DNA from: Halorubrum cibi
GTDB lineage: Archaea; Halobacteriota; Halobacteria; Halobacteriales; Haloferacaceae
Assembly: GCF_900182635.1 (NCBI RefSeq)
Contig: NZ_FXTD01000011.1
Coordinates: 62,001 to 126,000 of the forward strand
Direction: 5' to 3'
Length of the DNA stretch: 64,000 nucleotides
Shown piece by piece: positions 35,256-45,319 of this stretch. Position 1 is the first letter of the stretch. Every line of letters starts with the position of its first letter. Below the pieces are notes generated by a model, which made no database searches, was not told the DNA's origin, and worked only from the letters and a program-made list of their open reading frames with translations. The position numbers and the translations under genes were made by a program.

Positions 35256-35774
35256 TCACTCGAACGACTCCATTTTCCGGACGATCCTCGTGTACAGGTC
35301 CGGGGCGACGTACCACCCGTGCTCGATCATCGTGTCGATCGTCTCGCGTCCCCGATCGGGTGATAGCTCCCCGCATTTCACCGCCGAGAGGACCACGTAC
35401 GCGGTCCCTCGCGTCTCGACGCCCTCGACTTCCGCGGCCGACCGGCCGGCCGCCTCGTCCATCACCGCGACCGCGTCGCGCGCGTCGGCATACGCCAGCA
35501 CCGCGACGTCGGCGTCGCTCAAGCCCGAGTGCCGATCCAGTCGCGTCGCGATCGCGGAGTCGTCGAGGTCGGTCTCGACGACCTCGAGGCGTCCCCCCTC
35601 GACGGCCTGCTCGATCCGGCGCGCGTCATCGTAGCCCGCCTCGATCTCCTCGGTCACCACCTCGTCGTACACCGGCTCCGGGACGAGTCGGGGTTCCGAA
35701 AGCGTCTCGACGACCGCGAGCCGCTCCGCCTTCGCGAGGTAGATCAGCGCGGTCGCGTCGAAGACCCAATTCAC
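35256..35774 (-). CDS. PIN-domain protein (VapC-like toxin)
   Basis: The 172-residue PIN protein starts with GTG (decoded Met) in NWVFDATALIYLAKAERL, with the first acidic residue at about D6. Later acidic positions are visible in SGLSDADVAVLAYA and AVMDEAAGR. This is the family usually paired with UPF0175 antitoxins. Its start overlaps the stop of the UPF0175 gene (GTGA). A ribonuclease toxin role is inferred from the pairing and PIN fold. Confidence 0.8.
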   Translation of the reverse strand: MNWVFDATALIYLAKAERLAVVETLSEPRLVPEPVYDEVVTEEIEAGYDDARRIEQAVEGGRLEVVETDLDDSAIATRLDRHSGLSDADVAVLAYADARDAVAVMDEAAGRSAAEVEGVETRGTAYVVLSAVKCGELSPDRGRETIDTMIEHGWYVAPDLYTRIVRKMESFE

Positions 35775-36055
35775 AGGTCCTCGAGGTCGGCTTCGAGGTG
35801 ATCACCAGAGACCCACGCGGCGTCGGCCTCCTCGACGAGTCGTGCGAACTCCCAGACGGACAGGTCGGTGAGTTCGGCAGCCTTGGTGAGCGAGACCTCG
35901 CCGTCGGCGAACCGGTCGAGTGCGCGCTCCCTGCGCCACTCCTCGAGACCCTCCGAGAGGAGTTTCCTGACCGCCGTACTCCGGTCGAGGCGCTCGGACT
36001 CGAGGTAGGCCTCGAGTTCCGATTCGAGGTCCTCGGGGACGCGGGTTGAGATCGT
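35771..36055 (-). CDS. UPF0175 family antitoxin; start codon not canonical
   Basis: The reading frame encodes a typical UPF0175 protein: TISTRVPEDLESELEAYLESERLDRSTAVRKLL and then a second HTH-like half (GEVSLTKAAELTDLSVWEFARLV). These act as antitoxins for neighbouring PIN toxins. No ATG or GTG exists in frame near the conserved beginning; the nearest usable codon upstream is a TTG at 36199 that would overlap the opposite gene's region. The start given is the edge of the conserved core. The gene may use a rare start or be damaged at its 5' end. Confidence 0.65.
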   Translation of the reverse strand, partial: TISTRVPEDLESELEAYLESERLDRSTAVRKLLSEGLEEWRRERALDRFADGEVSLTKAAELTDLSVWEFARLVEEADAAWVSGDHLEADLEDL

Positions 36056-36208
36056 GCCCGTGGCGTATACTATGTGTACGATGTATTCATAGGTTTCAGG
36101 GCTCGCGTGTACGCCTGCCTGTCGGAGTACCCGATCGACCTGATACCGAGAACGGGATCGACCGTCGGCCGGGTGTGATTTATATGACCGCGAGAGCAAT
36201 ACACACGT

Positions 36209-36499
36209 ATGTCAGAAGCGGGTACGAACGACGTCGATTCCGACGACCCCGAGACCACGACGATCAACGTTCGGGTCACCGAGCGGCAGTTGGAGGAGAT
36301 CGACGCGGTCTGGAAGGAGGAAGGCTACACCTCTCGAAGCGAGTTCCTTCGCCACGCGATCCGGGACGCGACGGAGCACCCGGGTGCGTCACGCGGCATG
36401 CTGGTGAGCATCGCCGCCGAGGAGTACGCGATGCGGAAGGGGGAGCATGACTCCGTTTCCCGTGAAGACGTTCTCGAGATGATCGATGACGGCGAGTGA
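36209..36499 (+). CDS. Ribbon-helix-helix (CopG-like) antitoxin/regulator
   Basis: The 96-residue protein has an RHH motif, TTTINVRVTERQLEEIDAVWKEEGYTSRSEFLRHAIRDA in outline (about 16-54), followed by a C-terminal arm likely to bind a toxin. A TATA-like gatttatat is centred about 28 nt upstream. It overlaps the downstream RelE-like gene by 14 nt, the layout of a type II antitoxin-toxin operon. The RHH probably autoregulates the pair. Confidence 0.82.
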   Translation: MSEAGTNDVDSDDPETTTINVRVTERQLEEIDAVWKEEGYTSRSEFLRHAIRDATEHPGASRGMLVSIAAEEYAMRKGEHDSVSREDVLEMIDDGE

Positions 36500-36773
36500 C
36501 GACTGGACGTGGGAGTTCCGGCCGCCCGCCGCGCGGGCGTTCGAGAGGCTCGATCCGGCGATACAGCAGCGCATCGTCTCGAAGCTCGACGAGATCGTGA
36601 CGGACGAATGGCGGGAGCCGCCGGCGTACGTCGAACCGTTGTCCGGCGTCCCGCACGGAAAGATCCGTATCGGTGACTTCCGTTTGGGAGCTGCTGCGGA
36701 CCGCGAGAACGAGACACTACTGATCTACGACATCGAACATCGGTCGGGAGCGTATCGGCCGGGTGACGACTAA
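36486..36773 (+). CDS. RelE/ParE-family toxin
   Basis: The 95-residue protein has the RelE fold pattern: WTWEFRPPAARAFERLDPAIQQRIVSKL in outline, then VEPLSGVPHGKIRIGDFRLGAAAD and a last strand LLIYDIEHRSGAYRP. The basic residues K and R in the GKIRIGDFR strand and the late Arg fit an mRNA-interferase site. It follows its RHH antitoxin with overlap. It is probably a ribosome-dependent or free RNase. Confidence 0.82.
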   Translation: MTASDDWTWEFRPPAARAFERLDPAIQQRIVSKLDEIVTDEWREPPAYVEPLSGVPHGKIRIGDFRLGAAADRENETLLIYDIEHRSGAYRPGDD

Positions 36774-37158: not shown

Positions 37159-38061
37159 CTACGGACCTTGGCCATTGTTTTCACTCTGACCTTGGCCATT
37201 GTTTTCACTCTGACCTTGGCCATTGTTTTCACTCTGACCTTGGCCATTGTTTTCACTCTGACCTTGGCCATTGTTTTCACTCTGACCTTGGCCATTGTTT
37301 TCACTCTGACCTTGGCCATTGTTTTCACTCTGACCTTGGCCATTGTTTTCACTCTGACCTTGGCCATTGTTTTCACTATCGTCGCTGCTATCTGTGATTT
37401 CCGGCCGCTCGTAGGTTATTCCACCGACTGTTACTGACTCAATCTCTTCACTTGATCGTTTGATGGTTGCTTTATCTTTTTTCGAACTAACTTCTTCCTT
37501 GTTTCCGTCGACAAGTACTTCCATGTCGTCCGATTTACCATATATGAAGACCGTACCTTCTCCGTTGAATCGGACATCGATACACGAAAATTCGAACTGC
37601 TGGGTCGTTTCGACGGCCGCTCCACCAGCTTCTCCATAGAACGAGAGCTTGACCGATCCCGTTCCAGTATCCCCACACTCGACGCTGATGAAAGCCTTCT
37701 CGCCGACACCCAGTCCCTCGTCGTCATCTTTGTTCTCGATCGCGTTGTCGATCGTGACTCCATCGACGACGCCTCCTGTCTTTACGACGTTCACGGTTAG
37801 ATCAAGCGGATCGGAGAACTGATTCTGTACCCTCACGACACCGTTCGGTCCGTAATCCTCGTCTTCGTCCGCCCGTTCGTAGTCGCCATCGGCTGGAACG
37901 ACCTCGTTCACCTGCTTCAGTCCCAGATACGCGTTCTCGTCCTCGACGACGTTCACGTCGACCCCCCGCTCGGCGTTCACGCTGCTGAACGCGCCTGAAC
38001 CAATGGTCATCGCGCCGGAGCTTGCGCCGCCGAGCAGGAGGATCAACTGTCGTCGTTTCAT
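37159..38061 (-). CDS. DUF1102-like secreted protein with C-terminal SENNGQGQ repeats
   Basis: The 300-residue protein opens with MKRRQLILLLGG and a signal-like helix ending GSGAFSSVNAERGVDVNV, then NAYLGL, the shared DUF1102 pattern also seen in the protein encoded at 39263-39820. A beta-rich domain (about 35-220), predicted exported, follows. Residues 229-300 are nine tandem copies of SENNGQGQ (the last ends P). The protein thus has a folded domain and a flexible hydrophilic tail, like a surface filament or matrix subunit. It lies on the opposite strand to most of the cluster. Codon choice here is richer in A/T than in core genes. Confidence 0.75.
   Translation of the reverse strand: MKRRQLILLLGGASSGAMTIGSGAFSSVNAERGVDVNVVEDENAYLGLKQVNEVVPADGDYERADEDEDYGPNGVVRVQNQFSDPLDLTVNVVKTGGVVDGVTIDNAIENKDDDEGLGVGEKAFISVECGDTGTGSVKLSFYGEAGGAAVETTQQFEFSCIDVRFNGEGTVFIYGKSDDMEVLVDGNKEEVSSKKDKATIKRSSEEIESVTVGGITYERPEITDSSDDSENNGQGQSENNGQGQSENNGQGQSENNGQGQSENNGQGQSENNGQGQSENNGQGQSENNGQGQSENNGQGP
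37162..37377 (-). repeat. Nine perfect 24-bp tandem repeats inside the DUF1102-like gene
   Basis: The 24-bp unit (plus-strand phase accttggccattgttttcac then tctg) repeats nine times with no internal differences apart from the terminal codon. It encodes SENNGQGQ. Perfect identity at wobble positions shows recent expansion, and the unit keeps frame, so copy number could vary between cells or strains. Confidence 0.95.
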
Positions 38062-38218
38062 TCGCTGGAGCCCCTCCGTCTTCGAGTCGAGATCGACGCT
38101 GTATTCGTATCGTTATGCGGTGCCGGAACGATGGTACGGAGCGCTTGAATTCGTTTCAGGGTTTGATTATTTCTCCGTATCTGTGGCTCTGTAGCCTGTA
38201 TTAGTCGTTCGGGTTGGA

Positions 38219-38797
38219 TCACTGGAGCTCCGGCGGCTCCTCCAGTTCTCCGACCTTCATCTCCTCGGTGTAGTACTTGTGCGTGACCGCGGAGAACATG
38301 AACGCGACAACGATCGCGAGCGTCCACGCGAGGTTCGGAAGCAGCGAAAAGGGCCACGCGCCGATCCACACCGCGGCCACGAGCGCGAGTGAAACTCCCG
38401 ACAAGCCGATGTAGTACTCGCTCCAGGGGATCTCCTTCCCCTCGACCACGTCCATGTAGAGATCGATGTTCTGGAGCGCGTCGGTGGGCTCGACGACCCC
38501 GCGGTTCTTGTTGAAGTCGACGACGCCGGCCCGGTCCATCTTCGGCAGGTGCGACTGCTGGAGCGCGGTGTACACGCGCTTGCGTTCGTTTCCCGTGATC
38601 TCTACCGTCTCGACGCCGTTCTCCCACGCCGCGATCTGCTCGGCCATCTCGCCGATCTTCATCGTCTCCTCCTCTCGTTTCAACAGATGCACCGCGAACC
38701 GCCGACGCTGGTTCGCGAGCACGTCGAACAGCTCGTCGTCGGAGATGTCGACTCCGACGTCAGAGGGTCCCCCGTCGATCTGCTGTGCCGACGCCAT
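38219..38797 (-). CDS. DUF7344-type membrane-anchored winged-helix regulator
   Basis: The 192-residue protein has an N-terminal winged-helix domain starting SDDELFDVLANQRRRFAVHLLKREEETMKIGEMAEQIAAWE in outline (about 18-58) and a helix ERKRVYTALQQSHLPKMDRAGVVDF. Two membrane helices follow at about 130-175. This is the haloarchaeal DUF7344 layout, predicted to bind DNA while tethered to the membrane. The ATG is supported by a TATA-like atttatg centred 26-30 nt upstream. Its location between two DUF1102 genes suggests it regulates this surface locus. Confidence 0.8.
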   Translation of the reverse strand: MASAQQIDGGPSDVGVDISDDELFDVLANQRRRFAVHLLKREEETMKIGEMAEQIAAWENGVETVEITGNERKRVYTALQQSHLPKMDRAGVVDFNKNRGVVEPTDALQNIDLYMDVVEGKEIPWSEYYIGLSGVSLALVAAVWIGAWPFSLLPNLAWTLAIVVAFMFSAVTHKYYTEEMKVGELEEPPELQ

Positions 38798-38823
38798 TTC
38801 TGTCTGACATATATGGTCCGACC

Positions 38824-38831
38824 AACATAAA
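38824..38831 (-). promoter_or_regulatory. TATA-like box for the DUF7344 gene
   Basis: The coding-strand sequence atttatg is centred about 30 nt upstream of the ATG at 38797 and supports that start over a longer frame that begins at 38971. Confidence 0.5.
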
Positions 38832-39060
38832 TCCTCGGATCGTGATGATTTAGTGAGGGTTCTCACGGCTCGAAACGCGCTCACGAGAGAACCCAAGTAA
38901 GCCGGAATTATCGGATACAGAGGGTTGATGAAGTCGTTATCTGATCTGATTACGAACGTCTCACGACTCACGAACGACGATTATTATATGAATAATTACG
39001 TATTAAAACACGCAGATCAGCCCTTCAGACCGATCGTGAACGGTGGGAAAGTGGTCTTCA

Positions 39061-39079
39061 GATCGGTCCTGAACCGATC
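39061..39079. promoter_or_regulatory. Perfect inverted repeat, possible operator
   Basis: Arms gatcggt and accgatc enclose cctga. It lies about 80 nt upstream of the likely TATA-like element for the DUF1102 gene at 39263 and about 250 nt upstream of the divergent DUF7344 gene, so it could serve a regulator of either. Confidence 0.35.
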
Positions 39080-39190
39080 GACCCGTCGTTCAAGCGGGGG
39101 CGGAAGGTATCCGAGCGATCTTCAGTCCAGCCCCGAACCCTTTCTGGAAATTCATAACGATATGGGATAGGCCCCATGGGTGTAGTAGAG

Positions 39191-39237
39191 CGACCCCGGG
39201 TGACGCGGGATGTCCCGCGTCGACAGCCCGCGGGTCG
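39191..39237 (+). promoter_or_regulatory. Strong 5'UTR hairpin before the DUF1102 gene
   Basis: Three collinear stems stack: cgaccc with gggtcg (outer), cggg with cccg, and gacgcggg with cccgcgtc closed by an atgt tetraloop (inner). About 18 base pairs form in total. It lies between the presumed transcript start near 39180 and the Shine-Dalgarno-like gaggt at 39250-39254. It could stabilise the message or control translation. Confidence 0.55.
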
Positions 39238-39262
39238 TGTGCGGTCAACGAGGTAACCAACT

Positions 39263-39820
39263 ATGGCAAACCGACGCAAGTTCATCGCCGGTCTGGGCGC
39301 ATTGGCTACGGGTAGTGCAGCTGCAATGGGTACGGGGGCGTTCAGCTTCATGAACGCTCAGCGTACTGTTAGTGTGAATGTTACGGGCGACTCGAGTGCG
39401 TTCCTTGGGATCGAAACTTCGCAATCAAAGTACGCAACTGAATCTGGAGGGACTGCTGAAATAACGCTTAATTCTGATAGTAATGGTAGCGGAGACGGGA
39501 TTAACGCCAATGCGGATACTCGATTTGATAACGTGCTAGTTCTCCGCAACAATGGTGATCGTGATGTTTCTGTTTCTGTCACCGATAATGATGATAATGT
39601 AGAGGATGTATTCCAGGTCTGGGTTGCCGATAGTGCGCCAACTACAGGAGCGAGTCTAACTCGTATTGATAACGGTACGACGTTTATTCTAGGAGAAGGA
39701 GAAGCGGCTCATCTTAGTGTGGGTACTTTCCTCCGGAACAATGCGGCGACCCATCTCCCTGATCAATTGACATTTTCAGTGGATAGTTCAATCCCCAACG
39801 ACGCAGTTGAACCACAGTAA
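39263..39820 (+). CDS. DUF1102-like secreted protein, AT-rich gene
   Basis: The 185-residue protein begins MANRRKFIAGLGALATG, a Tat-like NRRKFI motif and hydrophobic region, then TGAFSFMNAQRTVSVNV and SAFLGIE, as in the protein encoded at 37159-38061. The mature part is a beta-rich single domain with many Asn, Asp, Ser and Thr (NNGDRDVSVSVTDNDDN). No C-terminal anchor is visible. The start is supported by a Shine-Dalgarno-like gaggt 8 nt upstream, unusual for haloarchaea, whose messages are often leaderless. Codon third positions are strikingly A/T-rich compared with neighbours, which suggests recent transfer or special selection. Confidence 0.78.
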   Translation: MANRRKFIAGLGALATGSAAAMGTGAFSFMNAQRTVSVNVTGDSSAFLGIETSQSKYATESGGTAEITLNSDSNGSGDGINANADTRFDNVLVLRNNGDRDVSVSVTDNDDNVEDVFQVWVADSAPTTGASLTRIDNGTTFILGEGEAAHLSVGTFLRNNAATHLPDQLTFSVDSSIPNDAVEPQ

Positions 39821-40064
39821 ACTCAAGTACATCGGAGAATAGTTGTGAAAAGAAGATTTTTAAATGAATTCGCAGTTGCTACGGTTGATCACAATCGGAC
39901 CCCGTGCTGTTGGATAAGTATTATAAAAGATCACCAAAATGAATATAATGGTATTGAAACCTGATGATTTCAATTTGCGGGTCACTCACAATACAATCCG
40001 AAATAATGTAATCGGGGAATTCAGAAAATATTTGATCAAAATATATTAGATACAATAATATCCT
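39821..40064. other. AT-rich intergenic region
   Basis: This 244-bp gap has low GC compared with the rest of the window. It holds a TATA-like aatatatta (about 40038-40046) at the right distance for the next gene. Several A/T runs near 39855-39870 could end the preceding transcript. No gene was seen. Confidence 0.5.
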
Positions 40065-41660
40065 ATGGTTCCTATACGTCGCACCGCGATCCTCGCCGTC
40101 CTCCTCGTAGCCGCGGGCTCGCTCGCGTTCGCGACGGGCGCGGCGGTCCTCGACGGCGAGGCGGACACCCTCGCCGACGACCGCGTGGCGATCCAGCCCG
40201 CGGACGGCCCCAACGGGAAGTACGCCTACCTGAACGAGGACGACGAGATCACGGTCGACGTCTCGCCGACGAACCCGAACCTCTCCGCCGACTTCGAGGG
40301 TATCAACGTCGGCTCGACCGGCCGGATCGACGACGTGTTCACGATCACCTACACCGCGGACGAGACGGCGGACGTCTGGATCGAACACGCGGGCGAGAAC
40401 CTGACGTTCACCACCGACGACGGCCCGATCGAGAACGAATCGAACGGCGTCACCCTAGGGCCGGATCAGTCCGTCTCGGTCGGCCTCCGGTTCGACACGC
40501 GCGGGGCGGAGGCGGGCACGTATCTGAGCGGCGACGAGTTCGCGATCCACGCGAACGTCACGGACTCGGCGTCGGCGGAGAACGCGGCGCTCACCGCCGA
40601 GGACGGCGACGACGCCGGTCCCACGATGTTCGTCGAGAGCCCGGTGCCGTCGGCGCGCGAACTCGAGGCGAGCGACGTCGACCCCGACGACACGCTCCAG
40701 TTCGAGACGGACGGCATGTCGATCGACCGGGAAAACCTCACGCTCGACCGGATCGACCTCCACGGCGTCACGACCCGGACCGTCCGCATGAACGCCAGCG
40801 GCACCCCGGAGCCGCTGCCCGAGGCCGGCCCGCTTGAGACGCCGCAGGACCCGGTTCCGCTCGGCTACCTCGCGCTCGCGTACGACTTCGACCCCGCCGA
40901 GGTCGAGGAGATGGCGATCCGGTTCAGCATCGACCGCGAGTATTTGGGCGACACCGACCCCGAGAACGTGGTCGTCTTCCGCCGGAGCGACGACGGCGAC
41001 TGGGAGCCGCGCGAGACCGCGGTCGTCGACGAGGAGGTCGTCGAGATGCGCGGCCTCTCCGCGGACCGGGTCCACTTCGTCGCGCGCACGACGGAGTTCT
41101 CGACGTTCGCGGTCGCGACCCACACCGACCGGATCGCGGTCCGGAACGCCAGCCTCGCCGACGCGGCGCTCGAGGCCGGCGACGAGACGACCGTGACCGC
41201 GACCGTCGAGAACGGGGGCGGCGCGGCCGGCGAGCGAACCCTGGCGCTCACCGCCGACGGGGAGACGCTCGCCACCGAGACCGTGTCGCTCGCGCCGGGC
41301 GAGTCGACGACGGTCTCGTTCCCCGTCGGCTTCGAAGACGACGGCGCGTACGACCTCGCGGTCGACGGCGCCTCCGCCGGACCCCTCCTCGTGGGCGACG
41401 GGACCGACTCGAGCGACGACGGGGATCGGGCCGGTATCGGCGGCGGAGACGGGAGCGACGCGGACGGCTCGGACGCCGGACCCGGCGCGTCCGTCGACGA
41501 CTCGGCGACCACCTCGGGCGACGGTTCCGCGTCACCCGAAGCCGACGGGCCGACCGAGGAGCCGGGCGGGTTCGGACTCCCGGAACTCGCGGGCGTGACG
41601 GGAGTGCTCGCCGTGCTGCTCGGGTGGTTGGCGGTGATCCGGCGGATGCCGCACTCCTGA
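40065..41660 (+). CDS. Large secreted surface protein: DUF1102-like plus PGF-pre-PGF-like and CARDB-like domains
   Basis: The 531-residue protein has a signal helix (MVPIRRTAILAVLLVAAGSLAFATGAA) and a DUF1102-like beta domain (KYAYLNEDDEITVDVSPTNP, INVGSTGRIDDVFTITY). A region matching the PGF-pre-PGF type follows (IRFSIDREYLGDTDPENVVVFRRSDDGDWE to FSTFAVAT, about 285-350). A CARDB/adhesion-like domain (about 360-440), an acidic Gly/Ser linker and a C-terminal helix (GGFGLPELAGVTGVLAVLLGWLAVIRRMP) complete it. The end resembles a degenerate PGF-CTERM sorting signal. It is probably an anchored surface protein or filament tip. A TATA-like element 26 nt upstream supports the ATG. Confidence 0.75.
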   Translation: MVPIRRTAILAVLLVAAGSLAFATGAAVLDGEADTLADDRVAIQPADGPNGKYAYLNEDDEITVDVSPTNPNLSADFEGINVGSTGRIDDVFTITYTADETADVWIEHAGENLTFTTDDGPIENESNGVTLGPDQSVSVGLRFDTRGAEAGTYLSGDEFAIHANVTDSASAENAALTAEDGDDAGPTMFVESPVPSARELEASDVDPDDTLQFETDGMSIDRENLTLDRIDLHGVTTRTVRMNASGTPEPLPEAGPLETPQDPVPLGYLALAYDFDPAEVEEMAIRFSIDREYLGDTDPENVVVFRRSDDGDWEPRETAVVDEEVVEMRGLSADRVHFVARTTEFSTFAVATHTDRIAVRNASLADAALEAGDETTVTATVENGGGAAGERTLALTADGETLATETVSLAPGESTTVSFPVGFEDDGAYDLAVDGASAGPLLVGDGTDSSDDGDRAGIGGGDGSDADGSDAGPGASVDDSATTSGDGSASPEADGPTEEPGGFGLPELAGVTGVLAVLLGWLAVIRRMPHS

Positions 41661-41707
41661 CCGCCTCCGGCGACAGGGATTTACTCTCGGATGTCGTGGA
41701 TGTCGCC

Positions 41708-42652
41708 GTGACGGATCGGTCGATCGGTTCGGGCGCTCGCGTCGCGGATCCGCCGCTCCGTGAGGTCCTTCTCTCTCGTGCCCGACCGCCCGACCTCCTC
41801 GTCCTGTCGGCCGTCCCCGTCGTCCTCCTCGCGGCCTTCACGCTCTCGGAGGAGACTCGACGATCGCTCGCGTTCGCGTATCACGATCCGACCGTTCTCA
41901 CGGCGTTTTCCGCCCACTACGTCCACCTCGAGGCCGCACACCTCCTCTCGAACGTCGCCGCCTACGGGCTGCTCGCGGGCGTCGGCTACCTACTGGCGGT
42001 CACGAGCGGGCAGCGTCGGCTCTTCTTCACCGCGTTCGCGACGTTCTGCCTGTCCTTTCCGTTCGTGCTCTCCGCGATGAACCTCGCCGTCCCGCGGCGC
42101 GCGATCGGGTTCGGCTTCTCCGGCGTGAACATGGCCTTCGCGGGGCTCCTCCCGCTGTTGCTCGCCGCGTTCGTCCACGCGCGCCTCTCGAACGGCGAAC
42201 GCACCCCGCTCTCCGCGTCCACCCCGGTCCGACTGCTTCCGGCGACCTTCCTCGTCGTCGTCGGCTGGATCGGAGTCCTCGCGCTACCCACCGCTGCCGA
42301 TCCGACCGGGATCGTCGGCCCCGGCGTCCTCCTCGGCGGGGTGCTTCTCGGCGCGCGTGGGATCCTGTCGACCCCGCTGGAGCGCCGCCCCTCGGTTCGC
42401 GAGGGCCTGCGTCGGGTGATCGACCGACGCGGATACGGCGACCTCTTCGCCGTCGGCGCGACGCTCGCGGTCGCGTACCCGGTCGTCGGATTCCCCACCG
42501 ACCCCGGCGTCGACGGCGGCGTGATCAACCTCTACGTCCACTTTCTCGGGTTCTGCCTCGCGTTCATCGGCCCATACGTCCTGCTCGCGGGCGGCGTCTT
42601 CGACGAACGGACGGCCCGCCTCGGGGGTTCCACCGATCTCCGGCCCGATTGA
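41708..42652 (+). CDS. Rhomboid-like intramembrane serine protease
   Basis: The 314-residue polytopic protein has rhomboid features: HYVHLEAAHLLSN (H70, H73, H78, N82), GFGFSGVNMA with the catalytic-type S138 and INLYVHFLGF with H278. A Ser-His dyad is thus plausible. The GTG start (MTDRSIGSG) is placed by a TATA-like gatttact about 26 nt upstream; a longer frame exists. Rhomboids cleave within membrane helices, so a substrate could be the C-terminal anchor of the preceding surface protein. That link is inferred from adjacency. Confidence 0.75.
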   Translation: MTDRSIGSGARVADPPLREVLLSRARPPDLLVLSAVPVVLLAAFTLSEETRRSLAFAYHDPTVLTAFSAHYVHLEAAHLLSNVAAYGLLAGVGYLLAVTSGQRRLFFTAFATFCLSFPFVLSAMNLAVPRRAIGFGFSGVNMAFAGLLPLLLAAFVHARLSNGERTPLSASTPVRLLPATFLVVVGWIGVLALPTAADPTGIVGPGVLLGGVLLGARGILSTPLERRPSVREGLRRVIDRRGYGDLFAVGATLAVAYPVVGFPTDPGVDGGVINLYVHFLGFCLAFIGPYVLLAGGVFDERTARLGGSTDLRPD

Positions 42653-42721
42653 CACGATCCGCGACTTTATTACGCGCCGATGATAGCGTTCTACCGAACG
42701 CGACTGCTTCCTGATTGACAC

Positions 42722-43885
42722 ATGTCCCCTCGACGAATCCTCTCGGTCGGCGTACAGGTCGCGGCCGTCCTCGTCGTCCTCTCGCTCGTCGTCGGACAGT
42801 TCCTGGGACAGCCGATCCTCCTGAGCTTCGTCGAGACGGGGAGTATGCAGCCCACGCTCGATCCCGGCGACGGGTTCGTCGCGATCCCCGCGCCGGTCGC
42901 CGGCGGGGTCGGCGTCGGCGACGTGGTCACCTTCGAGGCCCAGGAGATCCAGGGCGGCGGCTTGACCACCCACCGCGTCGTCGACGAGACCGAACGCGGC
43001 TACATCACCCAGGGCGACAACAACCCCTTCACCGACCAGGACGGCGGGGAGCCGGTCGTCCAGGAGACGGAGATCGTCGCGAAGGCGCTCACCGTCGGCG
43101 GCAGCGTGGTGGTGATCCCCCATCTCGGGACGGTCGCCATGGCGTTCCAGTCGGGACTCGAGAGCGCTCAGACGTGGCTCGCGGTGACGTTCGGGATGCG
43201 GTCGCTCCAGGGCACTCAGGGCCTGGCGTACCTCCTCTTCGGTCTCTCAACCGTCGCGTACGCGGCCGACTGGCTGTTGACGGGACGGACCCGCGACCGG
43301 CCGGAGCGCGACCGCTCCCGCGACGACGGCACCTCGGTGACGTTCGTCCTCGTCGTGCTCGCCCTCGTGTTGATGAGCACCGCGACCGCGGCGATGCTGG
43401 TTCCCGGCGGAACCCAGGAGTACGGCGTCGTCAGCGCGGAGTTCGAGTCCGAGAACCCCACCGTGATCGAGCGGGGAACGAGCCAGGAGCTGGAGTACGT
43501 CATCCCGAACGCCGGGCTCGTCCCCGTCCGGACCTACGTCGAGCCGGCCAGTCCAGGCGTGGCGGTCGAGCCACGTCGGGTCGCGGTCGGCCCCCGCGGC
43601 GAGGAGTCGACCACGGTGACGCTCACGGCGCCCGAGGAGACGGGCTACTACCGGATGTTCGTCGTCGAGCACCGCTATCTGGCGGTGTTGCCGCCGGCGG
43701 TCATCGACGGTCTCTATCGGGTTCACCCGTGGGTCCCGCTCGTCGCGATCAACGCCCTGCTCGGCGGCGGCATCCTCCTGACCGGCCGCCTCCTGCTTCG
43801 CGGGGAGCCGGCGCGGATCCGGAGCCGCGAGTCCCGACGGAAGACCCCGCTTCACCGACGACTCCTCCGTGCGCTCTACAAGTGA
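42722..43885 (+). CDS. S26 signal peptidase, SipW/ER type, with extra membrane domain
   Basis: The 387-residue protein has an N-terminal anchor helix and the type I signal peptidase catalytic domain. Nucleophile S41 is in ETGSMQPTLDPGD; H84 in LTTHRVVDE replaces the bacterial Lys; D99 is in ITQGDNN. This Ser-His-Asp set marks the archaeal/ER/SipW class. Beyond about residue 150 it has further helices, an extracellular beta domain (YGVVSAEFESENPTVIERGTSQ) and a last helix. SipW-type enzymes are dedicated to TasA-like filament subunits, and DUF1102 genes lie just upstream. The next gene follows after 6 nt. Confidence 0.88.
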   Translation: MSPRRILSVGVQVAAVLVVLSLVVGQFLGQPILLSFVETGSMQPTLDPGDGFVAIPAPVAGGVGVGDVVTFEAQEIQGGGLTTHRVVDETERGYITQGDNNPFTDQDGGEPVVQETEIVAKALTVGGSVVVIPHLGTVAMAFQSGLESAQTWLAVTFGMRSLQGTQGLAYLLFGLSTVAYAADWLLTGRTRDRPERDRSRDDGTSVTFVLVVLALVLMSTATAAMLVPGGTQEYGVVSAEFESENPTVIERGTSQELEYVIPNAGLVPVRTYVEPASPGVAVEPRRVAVGPRGEESTTVTLTAPEETGYYRMFVVEHRYLAVLPPAVIDGLYRVHPWVPLVAINALLGGGILLTGRLLLRGEPARIRSRESRRKTPLHRRLLRALYK

Positions 43886-43891
43886 TTCCCC

Positions 43892-45319
43892 ATGAGTACA
43901 CCCCCCGATCCCGACGACGACCCGACCGCGTTCGATGACGGCGCCGCCGGTTCCGACGAGTCGCGGGTCGGTCCCGGTGGCTCCCGAACCGACCCGGACG
44001 AGACCCGGCTACGGCTCAGAGCGTTCCTCGACGCACAGTTCGCCGTTCTCCTCGCCGTCTGTCTCCTCGTCGTCGTGGCTGGCGGCGGTCTCGTCTACAC
44101 GACGCACGTCGATCCCGGCACGGAGACGCAGACGCGGACCGTCTCCGCGTGGACCGTCGAGACCGAATACGCTCACAGCGCGGAGGTGACCGAACCGAGC
44201 CCCGTGTTCTCCATCGGCGACGAACTGACGAACCGGGAGACGTACTTCGCGAGCGTCGCCCCCGAACTCGACGTCGCGGCCGAGACGAGCTACACCGCCG
44301 ACTCGGCCGAGTCCGTCGACGTGACGCTCGAGTCGGTGTTGGTCGTGCGCAACGTCGGCGGCGAGGAGAGCGGGACGGTCTACTGGGAGCAGCGCGAGCC
44401 GATCGACTCGACGACCGCGACCGACGTCGAGCCGGGTGAGACGGTCTCGGTGCCGTTCGCGCTCAACAGCACGGCGATCGACGAGCGGGTCGCGGCGATC
44501 GAGGAGGACCTCGGTGCCTCCCCCGGCGAGACGGAGACGTTCGTCCTCACCGACGTCGAGGTGGCGGGCACGCTCAACGGTGAGAACGTCACGTACACGG
44601 GGTCGAGTCGGTTCGGGATCAGCCACGAGGGGGCCACCTACACCGTCTCCGATCCGGGCGTTCAGTCCGACGGCGACGAACAGCAGGTCACCGAGACGGT
44701 CGAGCGGACCTACGGGCCGCTCCGGGGTATCGGCGGTCCGCTCACCCTGCTCGTCGGGCTTCTCGGCGTCGCCGGGCTGGGATACGCCAGATACGAAGGA
44801 CTCCTCGGCGTCGACGAGGCGGAGCGGGAGTACCTCTCGTTCCGCGACGACCGCGCGGAGTTCGACGAGTGGATCACTCGGTTCCGGCTTCCGCCGGCGG
44901 CACACGACCGCCCGGAGGCGCACGCCGACGGCCTCCGCGACCTGGTCGATTTCGCCATCGACAACGACACCGGCGTCGTCGAGGACCCGAACACGGGGGC
45001 GTTCCACGCCGTCTCCGGCGAGTTCGTCTACACGTACCGTCCGCCGCCCGCGCCCGCGTTCGGCGGCGTCGACGACCCGCTCGGTGCGGACGCGCGCGCC
45101 TCCGACGGGAGCGAATACGGGGACGGAGATAACGGGTCCGGAGATCGCGAGAACGGGTCCGGAGATCGCGAGAACGGGTCCGGAGATCGCGAGGACGGGT
45201 CCGGAGACCCCGAAGACGGGTCCGACGACGCGGGGTTGTTCACGAGTTCACTGTTCGGCGACGGTTCGGACGCGACGGACGGTTCCGAAGTCGACGTCGC
45301 CCCGGACGACGAGGAGTGA
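43892..45319 (+). CDS. DUF5305 membrane protein
   Basis: The 475-residue protein has a disordered N-terminus, a first helix (about 51-70: FAVLLAVCLLVVVAGGGLVYTTHVDPG), a long extracellular beta-rich domain (about 75-275), a second helix (GGPLTLLVGLLGVAGLGYAR) and a cytoplasmic part with a conserved FVYTY segment. This is the DUF5305 layout. It is commonly next to S26 signal peptidases in archaea. The C-terminus holds Gly-Asp-Arg-Glu-Asn repeats. It starts 6 nt after the signal peptidase, so they form an operon. It may be an assembly or anchoring partner. Confidence 0.85.
   Translation: MSTPPDPDDDPTAFDDGAAGSDESRVGPGGSRTDPDETRLRLRAFLDAQFAVLLAVCLLVVVAGGGLVYTTHVDPGTETQTRTVSAWTVETEYAHSAEVTEPSPVFSIGDELTNRETYFASVAPELDVAAETSYTADSAESVDVTLESVLVVRNVGGEESGTVYWEQREPIDSTTATDVEPGETVSVPFALNSTAIDERVAAIEEDLGASPGETETFVLTDVEVAGTLNGENVTYTGSSRFGISHEGATYTVSDPGVQSDGDEQQVTETVERTYGPLRGIGGPLTLLVGLLGVAGLGYARYEGLLGVDEAEREYLSFRDDRAEFDEWITRFRLPPAAHDRPEAHADGLRDLVDFAIDNDTGVVEDPNTGAFHAVSGEFVYTYRPPPAPAFGGVDDPLGADARASDGSEYGDGDNGSGDRENGSGDRENGSGDREDGSGDPEDGSDDAGLFTSSLFGDGSDATDGSEVDVAPDDEE
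45125..45223 (+). repeat. Imperfect 21-bp tandem repeats in the DUF5305 gene
   Basis: Four 21-bp units of the form ggagatcgcgagaacgggtcc and a partial leading unit encode the heptads GDRENGS, GDREDGS and GDPEDGS. The first two full units are identical and the later two have drifted. They encode a hydrophilic tail. Confidence 0.85.

Follow-up and report, generated by a model that had tools for sequence, protein, structure and literature searches.

A probable Tat-fimbria (tafi-type) assembly locus with rhomboid and DUF5305 genes in Halorubrum cibi

We analysed a 64,000-nucleotide stretch of the Halorubrum cibi genome (the window), in which positions 37,159 to 45,319 hold seven genes that, with a probability of about 0.87 judging from their sequences, constitute an assembly locus of the tafi type (Tat-fimbria; Tat, twin-arginine translocation). 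The broader assignment, a donor-strand surface filament served by a SipW-like peptidase, is well supported. It is built on sequence comparison and structure prediction: RR signals, a common [TS]GA/[FA] motif, a Sec11/SipW-type peptidase, a membrane-anchored TafF-like protein, and DUF5305, rhomboid and DUF7344 proteins, all linked across haloarchaea. The fibre that such a locus would encode belongs to a kind of thin filament whose construction resembles that of bacterial TasA and type 1 pili. A previous sequence-only reading of this DNA had proposed a dedicated filament secretion and assembly cluster with a SipW-type peptidase, which the conserved co-localization and the donor-strand fold of the pilin support. 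Its suggestion that the unit may be undescribed is not supported, since tafi (PDB 9P0A; NCBIfam TafA/C/E/F) is an established name for this system. We count it as known on the strength of the NCBIfam family names and the title of the PDB entry, whereas our literature search found no tafi paper. Fimbriae called 'tafi' have reportedly been described in Haloarcula hispanica. What is new is the rhomboid/DUF5305 variant, its pattern of variation and its control region.

Fimbrial subunits and signal peptidase

The link to a solved fimbria is made by the pilin. A profile of 65 pilins matches PDB 9P0A, 'Natrinema sp. J7-2 Tafi pilus' (released July 2025), at E=4.1e-35, and in the reverse search the 9P0A fragment retrieves the window pilin at 5e-17. 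Across the 65 sequences, R4 and R5 of the twin-arginine signal are invariant, and G23, G25, A26, F27, A32, R34, D43 and A46 are invariant or at least 90% conserved, so that the post-signal pattern noticed in the sequence-only reading is real. Among the fimbrial families TafA, TafC, TafE and TafF of NCBIfam release 20 (NF052520-NF052523), the pilin scores with TafE (2.4e-21, 76 bits, cut-off 155) and TafA (2.3e-10, 41 bits, cut-off 190), and it matches DUF1102 in Pfam (E=1.3e-5).

AlphaFold2 models the pilin as an all-beta protein, with a predicted local distance difference test score (pLDDT) of 76. Among solved structures, FimA, the bundling pilus 7UEG of archaea and the Sulfolobus thread 7PNB match its fold best, and 9P0A ranks twelfth. 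The model did not refute the proposed kinship with TasA-like jelly-rolls, as it matches the donor-strand pilins 7UEG, 7PNB and 9P0A. TasA itself is absent from the 50 best fold matches. AbpA (7UEG), which the literature relates to TasA, is among the matches, and the link to TasA runs via AbpA and the common donor-strand mechanism.

Two further secreted proteins resemble Taf components. The TafC-like protein scores with TafC (6.5e-6, 26 bits, cut-off 410) and TafE (2.4e-9) in NCBIfam, with canonical TafC in profile comparison (96.8%, E=2.5e-10), and with the pilin family in hhalign (99.5%, E=2.8e-22). The TafF-like protein carries Pfam DUF1102 (1.2e-7) and CARDB (7e-9) domains and matches canonical TafF in profile comparison (99.4%, E=1.4e-21); no window protein matches the NCBIfam TafF model. 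The DUF1102 label of the sequence-only reading stands for the pilin and the TafF-like protein; the TafC-like protein has no Pfam DUF1102 match and is related to the pilin profile instead. A tip adhesin is suggested by the LamG-type lectin domain of canonical TafC; in place of LamG, the window protein has its tandem repeat array.

The S26 peptidase passes the archaeal signal peptidase I model TIGR02228 (54.3 bits, cut-off 51.85), remains under the cut-off of the SipW model (1.4e-6, 28 of 190 bits) and matches SEC11A at 1.9e-5. The Ser-His-Asp residues S41, H84 and D99, which had been predicted from the sequence, are invariant in 21 homologues of 37-95% identity, as is D105. It is the only long S26 that was found in the genome, and its gene adjoins the pilin-type genes.

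Conservation, divergence and control of the locus

We found this gene order again in 20 selected regions and in 80 named loci: a secreted protein and DUF7344 face left, and to their right come one or several pilins, the TafF-like protein, in some loci the rhomboid, S26 and DUF5305. Within 7.5 kb of S26, in the 79 loci with enough flank, we found DUF1102/pilin genes in 74, DUF7344 in 72, DUF5305 in 70, TafF/CARDB-type genes in 57 and rhomboid in 37; DUF5305 lies immediately 3' of S26 in 53 of the 79, and DUF7344 is divergent and upstream of S26 in 68. This set leans to close relatives, as it was chosen by S26 similarity. Of 141 haloarchaeal genomes, 107 have both the long S26 and the TafE family and 30 have neither, with S26 alone in three and TafE alone in one (Fisher p=4e-26, uncorrected for relatedness; presence and absence each span many genera). 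The linkage that the sequence-only reading had put up for testing is therefore conserved across haloarchaea, far above chance. At one locus (L093), several DUF1102/TafE-like genes stand in a row between two DUF7344 genes, together with S26, which amounts to an expanded pilin repertoire.

Several points weigh against an assignment to tafi. Every Taf score of the window proteins stays under the NCBIfam equivalog cut-offs, and the cluster appears to have no clear TafA orthologue. The TM-scores of the pilin fold matches are low (0.34-0.39) and weak taken alone; modest values are expected with a swapped donor strand, and we therefore put weight on the sequence match to 9P0A. The roles of the rhomboid, DUF5305 and DUF7344 proteins are proposed through guilt by association. 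From the scores under the cut-offs it follows that the window genes belong to a divergent subfamily and are not orthologues of the named genes. Canonical taf clusters with TafA, TafC, TafE, TafF, a long S26 and DUF7344 are found in related genomes (L078, L091), and genomes of the same genus (G006, G013, G107) possess a canonical cluster alongside an orthologue of the one described here; the window cluster is therefore a distinct paralogous lineage.

The secreted proteins could also be surface or soluble beta-sandwich proteins for binding or adhesion, exported by Tat with the help of export and processing genes of fimbrial type. The CARDB domain of the TafF-like protein, the high divergence of the subunit genes and the unmet NCBIfam cut-offs would fit such a role, but the dedicated peptidase with its near-perfect co-occurrence, the profile match to a solved pilus subunit, and the position of the genome's sole long S26 beside these genes speak for a fimbria, and we consider non-fibrous products very unlikely.

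Subunits and machinery differ strongly in their variation. Identity to Halorubrum-type relatives is 78-95% for S26 and 72-91% for DUF7344, compared with 28-48% for pilins and 33-47% for TafC-like proteins. The closest relative (L076) shares 95% identity in S26, 83% in the TafF-like protein, 81% in the rhomboid and 43% in the pilin, and the S26 gene is 94% identical to that of Halorubrum rubrum and 91% to that of Halobellus captivus. The guanine-plus-cytosine (GC) content stands at 0.49-0.52 for the subunit genes and at about 0.70 for those of the machinery; between positions 36000 and 39820 it drops from about 0.70 to 0.49-0.52 across the two subunit genes, with 0.63 for DUF7344 between them. 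That the pilins are hypervariable while the machinery stays constant suggests that the fibre surface is under selection, possibly by viruses or through partner recognition. The GC break and the low pilin identity beside a conserved S26 could also be taken as signs of a former tafi locus which now makes a different or degenerate appendage, its machinery retained and its subunits swapped by recombination. Yet the Tat signal and the processing motif are preserved, and so are the leader and the promoter motif, as one would expect of a working locus that diversifies, and a locus of this former kind appears even less probable than non-fibrous products.

The control region of the tafi-type locus is itself conserved. 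About 135 nt 5' of the pilin start show 85% mean column identity in 18 sequences, and the leader within them can fold as a long hairpin in which two pairs are compensated, with a fold z-score of -2.77; it has no match in Rfam, where the search gave one tRNA only. Strong conservation of this leader (window 39140-39262) is seen in Halorubrum and Halobellus. It also precedes the pilin at an unlinked locus of the relative G006 (L206:1491-1627), possibly a sign of pilin cassette exchange. In the 3.18-Mb genome, the motif TTCYGGNNNNKCATAACGATA has exactly two copies, one upstream of the TafC-like gene and one upstream of the pilin gene, and all other genomic sites have at least three mismatches. As the motif was derived from these two genes, its evidential weight lies in its absence elsewhere. 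Its restriction to the two subunit genes argues for their co-regulation, possibly by the DUF7344 protein (PF24035, E=3.7e-30 to 6e-30), a plausible candidate regulator. The open reading frame of the latter reaches 38971, and homologues favour a start at 38797.

All seven open reading frames that had been listed for this region were found in place, and Pfam and NCBIfam searches bear out their family labels (Table 1).

Table 1. Features of the tafi-type locus in the window
Feature	Position	Strand	Basis
TafC-like secreted subunit	37159..38061	-	RR (Tat-type) signal, GSGA/FSS site, pilin-like head, C-terminal ENNGQGQS repeats
24-bp tandem repeat, 8.9 perfect copies, encoding the TafC-like C-terminal repeats	37164..37377		Tandem Repeats Finder
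21-bp promoter/operator-like motif TTCCGGCACCGCATAACGATA, upstream of TafC-like gene	38108..38128	-	0 mismatches to TTCYGGNNNNKCATAACGATA
DUF7344 protein, C-terminal membrane helices, candidate regulator	38219..38797	-	PF24035
21-bp motif TTCTGGAAATTCATAACGATA, upstream of pilin gene	39142..39162	+	0 mismatches to TTCYGGNNNNKCATAACGATA
Conserved structured leader of pilin gene, long hairpin around ACGCGGGATGTCCCGCGT	39165..39262	+	Conservation, folding
TafE/TafA-like pilin	39263..39820	+	Tat signal RRKFIAGLG, predicted cleavage GTGA/FSF, N-terminal strand RTVSVNV
TafF-like membrane-anchored protein	40065..41660	+	DUF1102-like head, CARDB domain, tail EEPGGFG, transmembrane stretch, RR
Rhomboid-type intramembrane protease, rhombosortase-like	41624..42652	+	HxxxN, GxSG, distal His
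S26B (Sec11/SipW-type) signal peptidase, C-terminal extension	42722..43885	+	TIGR02228 above cut-off
DUF5305 membrane protein, two membrane helices flanking a beta-sandwich ectodomain, cytoplasmic tail	43892..45319	+	PF17231 1.1e-53

Leftward, the genes encode the TafC-like protein with its ENNGQGQS repeats and the DUF7344 protein; rightward follow, in order, the pilin, the DUF1102-CARDB (TafF-like) protein, the rhomboid, the S26 peptidase and the DUF5305 protein. Two toxin-antitoxin-type pairs adjoin the cluster: a PIN/DUF3368 protein beside a small open reading frame (35256-36199), and a ParE-like protein (PF05016 4e-4, just under the cut-off) after another small one (36209-36773).

Rhomboid, DUF5305 and a proposed assembly pathway

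In the rhomboid, the HxxxN motif, the GxSG serine and a distal His are invariant in eight homologues, among them the previously proposed S138 and H278 (S161 and H301 counted from codon 41639). All eight homologues match the rhombosortase model TIGR03902 at E<0.1 (best 2.3e-5), though under its cut-off, and only two the Pfam rhomboid model; the window rhomboid itself is also under the rhombosortase cut-off (16.7 vs 84 bits). The gene preceding the rhomboid encodes a tail of E[PL]xG[FI], a hydrophobic stretch and RR. Such a tail is found in 35 of 40 TafF/CARDB-type proteins with a rhomboid nearby, compared with three of 19 without, in a count for which the motif was defined after inspection and the species are not independent. 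A strict pairing is weakened by canonical TafF, which occurs near a rhomboid without the tail, and by rhomboids found elsewhere alone. The GlyGly-CTERM model is not matched by the window TafF-like tail and is passed by one of ten related tails. C-terminal processing of the TafF-like protein by the rhomboid may thus be regarded as a lead. A role of the TafF-like protein as substrate of a PGF-CTERM archaeosortase was rejected, as neither the whole protein (E<=1) nor the isolated tail matches TIGR04126. The same rhomboid subfamily also adjoins DUF7344 proteins away from pilin genes (L186, L187, L188); at L188 it comes straight after a protein of the CARDB family that ends in EQSGFDLS, a transmembrane stretch and RRR, a rhomboid/tail pair outside a pilin cluster.

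The AlphaFold2 model of the DUF5305 protein is confident (pLDDT 84, core >90) and comprises two membrane helices, a beta-sandwich ectodomain and a cytoplasmic domain. Its weak fold matches, the TMEM106B luminal domain and Af_0446, hint at a LEA/WHy-like sandwich and not at a pilin. A TasA- or TapA-like subunit is not supported, since the fold resembles LEA/WHy-like and other beta-sandwich proteins in these weak matches. From its gene position, one might guess at an assembly or anchoring factor. A 21-bp tandem repeat of 4.5 copies (45131-45224) encodes a Ser/Gly/Asp/Glu-rich repeat in its C-terminal tail.

The genome holds a second tafi-type cluster (G000:C2:208-213 kb; L006:7916-13110) of the same divergent layout, with TafC-like, DUF7344, two pilin-like and TafF-like genes, without adjoining S26, rhomboid or DUF5305. 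The tail of its TafF-like protein reads TEPAAFDPADFAG...RR. Because our searches of the genome returned a single long S26 and a single DUF5305, in-trans sharing of the enzymes with this cluster is likely.

A filament of this kind would most likely be assembled as follows. Tat would export folded subunits, and the S26 enzyme would cleave after GTGA and free an N-terminal strand (39263 product: FSFMNAQRTVSVNV), which would complete the beta-sandwich of the next subunit by donor-strand complementation, so that the fibre lengthens at the membrane. The tip or adhesin could be the TafC-like protein, and the base or terminator the TafF-like protein, whose C-terminal membrane anchor the rhomboid may trim or release. 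DUF5305 may serve in assembly or anchoring, and DUF7344 together with the common 21-bp motif may control both subunit genes. More tentatively still, and with doubt prevailing, the locus could combine two proteolytic sorting steps, a SipW-type one that frees the N-terminal donor strand and a rhombosortase-like one that cuts the E[PL]xG[FI]-transmembrane-RR tail and releases or fixes the fibre base, with a pilin cassette that diversifies fast downstream of an unchanging promoter and structured leader, and with a peptidase-less second cluster that uses the same enzymes in trans.

Our results give functional labels to the uncharacterized families DUF1102, DUF5305 and DUF7344, the long S26 and the rhomboid, a block carried by roughly three in four of the haloarchaeal genomes sampled, tie these families to donor-strand fibres common to archaea and bacteria, and yield direct predictions on processing and control.

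Comparison with known systems

The locus shares with the Tafi pilus of Natrinema sp. J7-2 (9P0A) the Tat signal, the GTGAFSS motif, the beta-rich pilin, and the joining of S26, DUF7344 and TafC-, TafE- and TafF-like genes in a single cluster. It differs from canonical tafi in the genes that flank S26, with the rhomboid immediately ahead of it and DUF5305 immediately behind, and its TafF-like protein from canonical TafF in the CARDB domain and the GG-type tail.

TasA fibres and archaeal threads assemble by donor-strand complementation (PMC9674648, PMC9715654). The bundling pilus AbpA (7UEG) and the Sulfolobus threads (7PNB) resemble the window system in the fold matches of the pilin model, in their donor-strand fibres and in processing of signal peptidase I type, which for the threads is a prediction (PMC9715654). 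However, identity to them is 13-15%, and neither a Tat signal nor an S26/DUF5305/rhomboid/DUF7344 cluster is reported for them in the literature examined.

In Bacillus subtilis, where SipW cleaves TasA and TapA (PMC9674648, PMC9715654), tapA-sipW-tasA likewise unites fibre subunits and a dedicated S26 peptidase in one operon, with an N-terminal donor strand (PMC9674648). This bacterial operon is without rhomboid, DUF5305 and DUF7344, and the window S26 fails the SipW model. In the bacterial rhombosortase/GlyGly-CTERM system, finally, a protease of the rhomboid family likewise neighbours a protein that combines a G-rich motif, a membrane helix and an Arg-rich end, whereas the window proteins fail both of its models, carry the tail motif E[PL]xG[FI] and are not strictly paired.

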